Source: Planctomycetaceae bacterium
Lineage (GTDB): Bacteria > Planctomycetota > Phycisphaerae > SM23-33
Assembly (NCBI GenBank): GCA_039680605.1
Contig: JBDKTA010000069.1
Location: forward strand, 1 to 61,589
Length of the DNA: 61,589 bases
Reading direction: 5' to 3'
Part shown: in pieces, positions 2,647 to 16,495 of the stretch
Layout: every line of letters starts with the position of its first letter
Position numbering within the stretch: position 1 is the first letter of the stretch
Notes under the pieces: generated by a model
What the model saw: only the letters and a program-made list of their open reading frames with translations
Told to the model about the DNA's origin: nothing
The model's database searches: none
Made by a program: the position numbers and the translations under genes

Positions 2647-3927
2647 CTGCTTCGCCCGTGCCACGGGCTCAGCCAGAAACTCATCCAACCCGCGCTTGGT
2701 CTGCGTCCCGGCGGTCAGGTCCTTCACCGTCACGCCGCCGTCGGGCTCGATGATCGCCGCGAACTTGGCGCCGCGCTGGCTGGCTTGCTTGAACTGTTTG
2801 CCGATGGCTTGGCGCTTGTAGCTGAAGTCGGCAGAGAGGCCTTTGCCTCGCAGCGCCCCCACCACCGCCAGGGCTTTTTCGAACGTCCCCTCGGCGTCGA
2901 TGACGAAGAAGTCCAACTGCCCGCCCAGGGCCGGCAGCTTGCCCTTCTCGGCCAGCAGGATGCCCAGCACCACGTCGCCCATGCCGAATCCGGTGGCGCC
3001 CAGGGCCGGCCCGCCGAGCACCTGCAGCAGATTGTCGTATCGCCCGCCGCCGGCGATGGCCCGCAGCGACTGCCCGGCGTCGAACACCTCGTACACCACG
3101 CCGGTGTAGTACGCCAGGCCGCGAACCACGCCCAGGTCCAGCTTGCAGTACTCCGCCGCCCCCATCACCGACAGGCGCGAGAGCAGCTCCTGCAGGTTCG
3201 CCACGGCCGCGGCGACGCCCTCGACCCCTTCGAGCAGATTGCCCACGTCGGCGCAGGCCGGGCAGTCCTGGAACCGCCGCGCGGAGTCGATCTGCGAGTC
3301 GCTCAGACCGGCGGCCTTGGCCAGACGCACGAACTCGGCGTCTTCGATCTTGGCGCGCTTGTCCAGCACGGCCAGCGCGGGGTCGATCTTGTCGTCAGTC
3401 ACGCCCGAGGCTTTCAGCGCCGCCACCGTCAGCGGGCGGCTGCCGATTCGCACCTGCACGTCGGTTGGCGCCAAGCCCACTTCGCGCAAGAAGTCGACGG
3501 CCGTGAATATGCACTCGGCGTCGGCGAGGGTGTCATCGGAGCCGATGACATCGATGTTCCACTGGAAGAACTCTCGCAGGCGGCCCTTCTGGGGATTCTC
3601 GGCGCGGCAGAGTCGCGGGGCGGAGAACCACTTGATCGGCCGCGGCAGAGCGTTGACGCGGGCGTTGACCATGCGGGCCAGCGCGGGCGTGATCTCCGGG
3701 CGAATCGCCAGGCTGCGCCCGCCGCGGTCGGTGAAGGAGAAGAGCTGTCCGGCGATCTCCTGCCCGCTCTTGGCGGTGAACAGGTCGAGGTACTCGAAGA
3801 TCGGCGAGTCGTATTCCTCGAACCCGTTGCGCAGCGAGACGCGGCGCCACGCGTCGACGATCCAGTTGCGGAGGCGCATTTCATCGGGATAGAAGTCCCG
3901 CGTTCCCTTGACGGCCTGAAAGTCCAT
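2644..3927 (-). CDS. hisS: Histidyl-tRNA synthetase
   Basis: Class II aminoacyl-tRNA synthetase of 427 residues that charges tRNA-His. Motif 2 is RLCRAENPQKGRLREFFQ (about 105-122), and the His-specific loops are present: RGLAYYTG at 269-276 (HisA box) and GGGRYDNL at 293-300. An anticodon-binding domain fills the C-terminal ~95 residues. The start MDFQAVKGTRDFYP is the canonical N-terminus. The gene lies 6 nt after the YkgJ-type gene and probably forms an operon with it. The TAG stop belongs to the adjoining palindromic repeat (TAGCACGGGCGTCTCGCC), so an element sits exactly at the gene end. Confidence 0.97.
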   Translation of the reverse strand: MDFQAVKGTRDFYPDEMRLRNWIVDAWRRVSLRNGFEEYDSPIFEYLDLFTAKSGQEIAGQLFSFTDRGGRSLAIRPEITPALARMVNARVNALPRPIKWFSAPRLCRAENPQKGRLREFFQWNIDVIGSDDTLADAECIFTAVDFLREVGLAPTDVQVRIGSRPLTVAALKASGVTDDKIDPALAVLDKRAKIEDAEFVRLAKAAGLSDSQIDSARRFQDCPACADVGNLLEGVEGVAAAVANLQELLSRLSVMGAAEYCKLDLGVVRGLAYYTGVVYEVFDAGQSLRAIAGGGRYDNLLQVLGGPALGATGFGMGDVVLGILLAEKGKLPALGGQLDFFVIDAEGTFEKALAVVGALRGKGLSADFSYKRQAIGKQFKQASQRGAKFAAIIEPDGGVTVKDLTAGTQTKRGLDEFLAEPVARAKQ

Positions 3928-7655: not shown

Positions 7656-7862
7656 GCTACGTCCACGAATGTCACGAATTGCACGAATGGGAAAACGACG
7701 GGAGGAAGATTGGAATGATGGAATGATGGGATGATGGAAAGCACCCGCTTGGGCATCTCTCCAATATTCCATTCTTCCAGCATTCCTCTTGCTTTTCCCC
7801 ATTCGTGTCATCCGCCTTCGCCAAGGCTACGGCGGACGGGTTCGTGACATTCGTGGACGTAG
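7656..7862. repeat. Long imperfect palindrome ACGTCCACGAATG (family E) with inner hairpin
   Basis: The left arm TACGTCCACGAATGTCACG pairs with the right arm, which ends CATTCGTGGACGTAGC. The interior pairs GGAATGATGGAATGATGG with CCATTCTTCCAGCATTCC. A 24-bp hairpin CCGCCTTCGCCAAGGCTACGGCGG (7812-7835) is embedded in the right arm. Related copies are at 16338-16495 (without the hairpin) and about 10715-10781 (right arm only, with the hairpin). Confidence 0.85.
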
Positions 7863-10714: not shown

Positions 10715-10781
10715 CATTCGTGCCATCCGCCTTCGCCAAGGCTACGGCGGACAGGTTCGTGACATTCGTGGACGTAACCTC
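10715..10781. repeat. Right arm of family E with CCGCCTTCGCC hairpin
   Basis: CATTCGTGCCAT, then the hairpin CCGCCTTCGCCAAGGCTACGGCGG (10727-10750), then TTCGTGACATTCGTGGACGTAAC. The order matches 7801-7862. No left arm was seen nearby. Confidence 0.8.
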
Positions 10782-10806: not shown

Positions 10807-12234
<1,428 letters not shown>

Positions 12235-15852: not shown

Positions 15853-16353
15853 ATGTCTGATGCCGCCTATCGCGTGCTGGGGATCGACCCGGGATTAAAC
15901 ATCACCGGGTACGGCGTCGTCGACTTCGCCGCCGGCGGGCCGCGGATCATCGAGGCCGGGGCCATCCGCACCGTCGCCAAGGCCGACATGCCCGCCCGCA
16001 TCGCCCAGATCTACGCGGACGTGAAAGAGATCATCGCCGAGTTCCATCCCGACTGCGTGGCCATCGAGAAGCTCTACTCGCACTATGGCCATCCGCTCAC
16101 CAGCGTGCTGATGGGTCACGCCCGGGGCGTGATTCTGCTGGCGGCAGCCCAGGCGGGCATTACCGTGCTGAACCTGCCCGCCACCAAAGTCAAAAAGAGC
16201 CTCACCGGCAACGGCCACGCATCGAAGCTGCAGATGCAGCGAAGCGTCCAGAGCGTGTGCAAGCTGCCGGAACTGCCGACACCGCCAGACGTCGCCGACG
16301 CGATCGCCATCGCCCTGTGCGCGGGGTCGGGGAGGAGTTACGTCCACGAATGA
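15853..16353 (+). CDS. ruvC: Holliday junction resolvase RuvC
   Basis: A 166-residue endonuclease that cuts Holliday junctions made during recombination, working with RuvAB. The four acidic residues are present: Asp12 (GIDPGL), Glu72 (AIEKLY), Asp146 and Asp149 (PDVADAIAIA). The last residues (SYVHE) and the TGA stop are encoded by the start of a dispersed ACGTCCACGAATGACACG repeat, so the native C-terminus has been replaced or trimmed. It heads a ruvC-ruvA-ruvB cluster. Confidence 0.96.
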   Translation: MSDAAYRVLGIDPGLNITGYGVVDFAAGGPRIIEAGAIRTVAKADMPARIAQIYADVKEIIAEFHPDCVAIEKLYSHYGHPLTSVLMGHARGVILLAAAQAGITVLNLPATKVKKSLTGNGHASKLQMQRSVQSVCKLPELPTPPDVADAIAIALCAGSGRSYVHE

Positions 16354-16495
16354 CACGAATGTCACGAATGGGGAAAACAACGGGAGGAAGAATGGAATGC
16401 TGGAATGTTGGGGTGTGCTGACTATCCCATCCTTCCATCCTTCCATCATTCCCTCTTTTCTCCATTCGTGTCATTCGTGACATTCGTGGACGTAA
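16338..16495. repeat. Long imperfect palindrome ACGTCCACGAATG (family E)
   Basis: GTTACGTCCACGAATGACAC on the left pairs with a right arm ending ATTCGTGGACGTAAC. The inner arms pair GGAATGCTGGAATGTTGG with CCATCCTTCCATCATTCC. A further partial unit (TTCCTCCCGTTCGTGATATTCGTG) follows at 16512-16536, next to the ruvA start. Confidence 0.88.

Follow-up and report, generated by a model that had tools for sequence, protein, structure and literature searches.

The window analysed here, a stretch of 61,589 nucleotides from a Planctomycetaceae bacterium, contains copies of a palindromic repeat, family E, whose positions are collected in Table 1. According to the open reading frames and Pfam, the first copy lies between an aldo/keto reductase gene (end 7644) and a convergent permease gene (end 7869), and the second is a single arm upstream of a FAD-linked oxidase gene that starts at 10807. 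At the third copy, ruvC ends within the repeat, whose first bases provide its final codons and its stop (TGA, 16351–16353).

Table 1. Family E copies, inserted units and empty target site in the window (a slash marks a junction).
Feature	Position	Strand	Basis
Family E palindrome with an unbroken left arm and the hairpin inserted in its right arm	7656..7862	+	sequence, ORFs, Pfam
30-bp insert composed of T + CCGCCTTCGCCAAGGCTACGGCGG + A + CGGG and followed by target T	7811..7840	+	comparison with the empty arm of 16338..16495
Single E arm, filled	10715..10781	+	sequence, ORFs, Pfam
Inserted 30-bp unit, tag CAGG, then target T	10726..10755	+	sequence
Family E palindrome, two empty arms	16338..16495	+	sequence, ORFs, Pfam
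Empty target site GTGTCA/TTCGTGAC	16468..16481, junction 16473/16474	+	sequence

The preliminary description had claimed that the right arm of the third copy is uninterrupted, that the same arm is split by about 30 bp in the first copy, and that the half copy is split likewise. All of this is borne out by the junctions: the arm of the third copy runs unbroken through its target site, and it reads GTGTCA[TCCGCCTTCGCCAAGGCTACGGCGGACGGG]TTCGTGAC in the first copy and GTGCCA[TCCGCCTTCGCCAAGGCTACGGCGGACAGG]TTCGTGAC in the single arm (outer brackets enclose the insert). The insert has exactly 30 bp and occupies the same point at both sites, with a placement that is ambiguous by one T. Since the left arm of the first copy is empty, a filled and an empty arm coexist within one E copy. 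The consensus of the unit is T-CCGCC-TTC-GCCAAGGC-TAC-GGCGG-A-C(A/G)GG, and the two inserts differ in the tag, which is CGGG at 7837–7840 and CAGG at 10752–10755. With up to three mismatches the hairpin is matched twice in the window against 0.00 expected, and with up to two mismatches it occupies 28 places in the genome against none for the reversed control; therefore, a chance origin of these matches is not an option.

The probable active strand can be written 5'-C(C/T)TG-N'-CCnnC-GNA-GCC-TT-GGC-GAA-GnnGG-N-3', in which the stem letters are variable but complementary; an unpaired four-base foot is joined to a stem of 6 bp, which a 3x3 internal loop separates from a small hairpin at the tip. 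The predicted DNA fold of this CYTG strand has −7.8 kcal/mol, versus −5.9 kcal/mol for the other strand. The core TTCGCCAAGGCTNC occurs at 182 distinct sites of the fetched loci, chosen with no regard to stem pairing; 121 of them carry CARG or CGGG six bases further on (the foot read on the other strand as CAGG, CAAG or CGGG), and 91 of these tagged sites have all six outer pairs. In the 59 distinct tagged variants, five of the six outer pairs change on both sides, with 63 cells so changed versus 20.3 in shuffles, and the covariation score of the outer stem is 0.310 versus 0.079 when shuffled, a value reached by none of 500 shuffles; the slid controls gave at most 0.079. The count of further pair types in these variants was not above that of the shuffles, and the inner GCC/GGC helix is invariant because the search fixed the core, so it is uninformative. 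No Rfam family was found at gathering score in the window.

This anatomy resembles that of REP sequences, and the best explanation, which we regard as probable, is that the unit represents a mobile element of 30 nt, REP-like and devoid of genes, that is inserted precisely by a putative Y1/HUH enzyme acting in trans. The hairpin would be moved as a folded single strand, most likely by an enzyme of the TnpAREP/IS200 type. Fifteen matches to Y1 genes were found in the source genome, and Y1 loci were read there (13 of 15), in genomes G006 (10 of 11), G007 (8 of 10) and G036 (2 of 8), and in L111–L118. Action in trans is proposed because the Y1 genes that were read adjoin other palindromes and never have this hairpin on both sides; in none of the Y1 loci scanned was the tagged hairpin found on both sides of the gene. 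In G006 and G007 other palindromes, many with a GTAG tag, stand on the flanks of the Y1 genes, and a single hairpin copy lies 293 bp from the Y1 gene of L257. At L242:264-1590, eight CACGCACA...TGTGCGTG palindromes form two blocks around a Y1-like gene. A weak test for replication-strand bias against local GC skew revealed none (10 of 26 positive, p=0.33). The lack of a dedicated Y1 partner beside the hairpin in the scanned loci would also suit another route, in which IS110-like, integron-like or relaxase enzymes act on the folded strand; given the REP-like anatomy, with its four-base foot and interrupted stem, and the many Y1 genes of the genome, we consider this rather unlikely, although it is the strongest of the alternatives.

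Family E was then read across the source genome (G000). Fifty rows of arm ends were obtained from the fetched loci, and three were dropped by eye as chance TTCGTGGAC matches (L032 minus 2314, L082 minus 384 and L061 plus 1019), leaving 47. Fifteen of the 47 arms are filled (the script flagged 14, and L088 was re-assigned from empty because a divergent hairpin is present) and 32 are empty and clean, a proportion that is not a genome rate, as the loci were fetched by arm or hairpin matches. Two insertion points were distinguished in the arm: an inner one before TTCGTGACA, used in six arms, and an outer one before TTCGTGGAC, used in ten; the arm of L029 is filled at both, and its outer junction is CG, not CA. 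Short CA-TTCG-TG hairpins are also present within the E arm.

The copies of the repeat are related and not orthologous, and some filled ones may descend from one insertion that was carried along with E. An extreme form of this explanation is that the hairpin moved only once here, into E, and that filled E then spread. The six inner-site arms, which have a near-identical hairpin and one junction, fit it to the extent that some may share one event. Nevertheless, we judge it improbable, since the outer site contains clearly different hairpins (loops CCAAGG, CCGAGG, CTGAAG, CTGCG and CCGGGGGC; closing pair T-A or C-G), and since the unit is also found in unrelated repeats and genes. A second target repeat of the source genome, GTGAAAAGTACAACAAAGTGCAAGG, has 54 empty places versus three filled copies, all three reading AAAAGTA[unit]CAACAAAG. 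A third target is the palindrome CATGCCCTTCCGCA/CAAGACGCGTAAGGGCATG of the relative G007, with 40 empty places and six filled copies seen among the fetched loci, where the unit lies in the loop region. Tandem CATCC repeats are struck as well. In G000, near-identical copies of the repeat GTGAAAAGTACAACAAAGTGCAAGGAAGTGGA stand at 54 places (L004, L007, L314–L323 and others), sometimes two of them within about 100–230 bp. On the minus strand of L130, at about 3473–3530, a hairpin with the same core and the stem TTCTG/CAGAA lies inside a GATTGCT...CGCAATGAC repeat that also contains a standard unit.

Genes are targets too. The gene encoding ...VDRTYVGRMLRLTSLAPDII... is empty in the homologues L362, L356, L347 and L346; in L345 it is filled at GGA/TGC, and in L344 it is filled 9 nt further on, by 30 bp and in frame in both cases. 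In L344 the stem of the unit is imperfect, and one substitution beside the junction is needed for the standard placement. L344 and L345 represent two genomes of one order, with parallel hits on one gene. A short palindrome, CCTGCCTGCCGGCAGGCAGG, occurs within about 15 bases after the hairpin in L071, and a similar sequence may be in frame in L345. The MiaB gene of metagenome-assembled genomes (MAGs) labelled Verrucomicrobia carries the unit as VVF[PPSPRLRRTG]EG, and the solved MiaB aligns as far as VVF. In L129, L134 and L140 the unit occupies the same place in the C-terminal region of MiaB, the case of L129 being one of DNA only; in L134 a further inserted stretch adjoins it.

The element also enters its own kind. 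In L298, from a genome of the same phylum (G224), a second unit splits the loop of a unit that is complete, its stem and CAGG tag included; the nested layout of L300 is similar, with an imperfect outer stem, and in both the host unit is split at CCA/AGG. Thus, the hairpin has been inserted precisely into two positions of E, into other repeats, into its own loop and into genes, and empty versions exist. The use of palindrome loops (E, the G007 palindrome and its own loop) suggests single-stranded targets, although tandem CATCC repeats and genes are used as well. As regards a target duplication, which the preliminary description had proposed to look for at the junctions, the window E sites and the gene target junctions allow for one ambiguous base at most and for nothing longer.

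An identical 30-mer ending GGACAGGT was found in 23 contigs from genomes labelled with many phyla and other groups, including Verrucomicrobia, Acidobacteria, Omnitrophota, Alphaproteobacteria, Planctomycetota, Sumerlaeia, Zipacnadia and Rifleibacterium, among others, an apparent spread that misbinning of MAGs could have inflated. In a sample of the phylum, 88 of 392 genomes contain the 15-base core, some in 20 to 39 copies, where single matches may be due to chance. Two viral contigs contain it, and in one of them (L312) it appears, by eye, to lie inside a reading frame. This distribution bears on whether the hairpins were made in place by template switching during replication and did not move at all. 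Quasi-palindrome correction is a mechanism able to yield perfect, covarying stems, and could thus account for those described above; but template switching duplicates sequence from nearby and would not introduce this core, and the same core and tag occur at unrelated sites, with the 30-mer identical in 23 contigs labelled with many phyla, which makes this origin highly improbable.

The E arm pattern occurs at 32 places in the source genome, at four in one relative, and nowhere in the other 38 of the 40 genomes searched, whereas the hairpin core is present in 24 of the same 40; the hairpin is therefore more widely distributed than E, which is a local target and simply one among several. A single pair of copies gives no direction by itself, but the idea that the hairpin is ancestral in E and that the empty copy is a ragged deletion derivative is contradicted by the 32 clean empty arms, the two hairpin positions and their joint use in one arm, the 54 empty versus three filled places of an unrelated repeat, and the presence of E in only 2 of 40 genomes, and it is practically untenable. 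Sorting the E copies of the fetched loci into filled and empty and reading their junctions hence favours insertion, and the earlier claim that the hairpin moves is supported by the two arm sites, the doubly filled arm and the differing hairpins at one site, as well as by other repeats in which empty places far outnumber filled ones and by gene homologues of which some have the unit and others lack it.

Another aspect of the insertions is the relation between the end of the element and its target. With N as the base before CC and N' as its partner, 70 distinct contexts were examined for agreement between N and the base directly behind the tag. A row was admitted when four or all five of the inner stem pairs were present, with no condition on N, and 27 of 126 rows, from the cross-phyla contigs, were left out because they had been fetched with a pattern ending GGACAGGT. 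N pairs with N' in 67 of the 70 contexts. In 50 of the 70, N, which is the first base of the element, is identical to the base that follows the tag, whereas 20,000 shuffles gave 23.7 such cases on average and never more than 39. In G000 outside E, five T-type units stand before T and nine C-type units before C, with none crossed (p=0.0005; 16 rows, two with other bases). At one site of G007 the next base is A or C, and the A-target copy has an A/T-closed unit and the C-target copies C/G-closed ones. The rule is broken in 20 of 70 contexts, which include three nested G224 units; those of L293, L298 and L300, nested at CCA/AGG, all have a T-A unit before A.

The match at the end base could reflect a one-base duplication or a choice of target through pairing with N', and the G007 copies are compatible with both. 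A pair borne by the element is somewhat favoured over a one-base duplication because the exceptions keep N paired with N' despite a different next base. The comparison of the sequences therefore suggests that the target may be chosen by base pairing with the element's end; in the proposed mechanism, the insertion point would be set in part by pairing of N' with the target base. For TnpAREP, guide-like pairing of the foot tetranucleotide with the cleavage site, and the need for a stem bulge, are described in the cited sections of PMC8266576. More tentatively, and as a possibility that we hold below even, these units may form a superfamily of mobile single-stranded hairpins of 30 nt, with a CYTG foot and a GNA/GAA internal loop, in many bacterial phyla; they would move in trans without a dedicated transposase, use the outermost pair as a one-base guide and favour palindrome loops, their own included. 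If so, each insertion records its own targeting rule.

The insertion of REPs into palindromes is a known phenomenon: the sections of PMC3733652 cited here report, for GTAG-23 of T. roseum, REPs inserted in palindromes, the genome containing hundreds of such targets. In the open-licence papers searched, no description of the CARG tag, of the cross-phylum family or of the end-base rule was found, nor any match to the hairpin sequence or to the peptide FAKATADK. The spread of REP-like hairpins is still an open question, and the 2021 TnpAREP paper refers, in the part cited, to the dissemination pathway as work in progress (PMC8266576). A fixed 30-bp unit in many copies of known targets bears on it, because exact junctions, reuse of sites, nesting and the link between end base and target can be read directly and converted into an in vitro test.

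MITEs carry the terminal inverted repeats of larger transposons and generate a multi-base target duplication; the unit described here is a single hairpin of 30 bp with a duplication of at most one base, so this class was rejected. The GTAG superfamily REPs, as portrayed in the cited sections of PMC3733652, are palindromes of 20–40 bp with an unpaired four-base tag and complementary stem changes that also occur inside genes; most GTAG-3 members have non-complementary di- or trinucleotides between stem and loop, and some have GGC/GCC upper stems. The hairpin resembles them in being a short, imperfect, tagged palindrome with a complementary, covarying stem and copies within genes. It differs in its foot, which is CYTG, or CARG when the opposite strand is read, in place of GTAG/GTGG, with GTAG only inside the stem loop and variable at its second base, in that no Y1/RAYT gene flanked by it was found in the Y1 loci scanned, and in the identical 30-mer under many phylum labels and the one-base target match. 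The CGTC repeats are tagged palindromes reported in the same sections without an associated transposase gene, with stems of 8–9 bp, A-T at the first two positions, loops of 4–5 bases and mostly a CCA tail (PMC3733652); in contrast with these (CGTC, TGTC, CCTC), the hairpin has a CYTG foot, a 6-bp stem and CC/GG next to the outer pair. Rickettsia palindromic elements, of which RPE-4 and RPE-6 are there assigned to CGTC families (PMC3733652), are likewise short palindromes with in-frame gene insertions, but the tag differs. With the REPs of the TnpAREP/RAYT systems, as far as the cited sections describe them (PMC8266576, PMC6006769), the unit shares a foot tetranucleotide and a stem bulge and, on the mechanism proposed here, the single-strand hairpin and a cleavage site chosen in part through foot pairing; the feet given there are GT(A/G)G, and CnGA in class 3, whereas here the foot is CYTG, and cutting of CYTG hairpins by such enzymes is a prediction of the present analysis.
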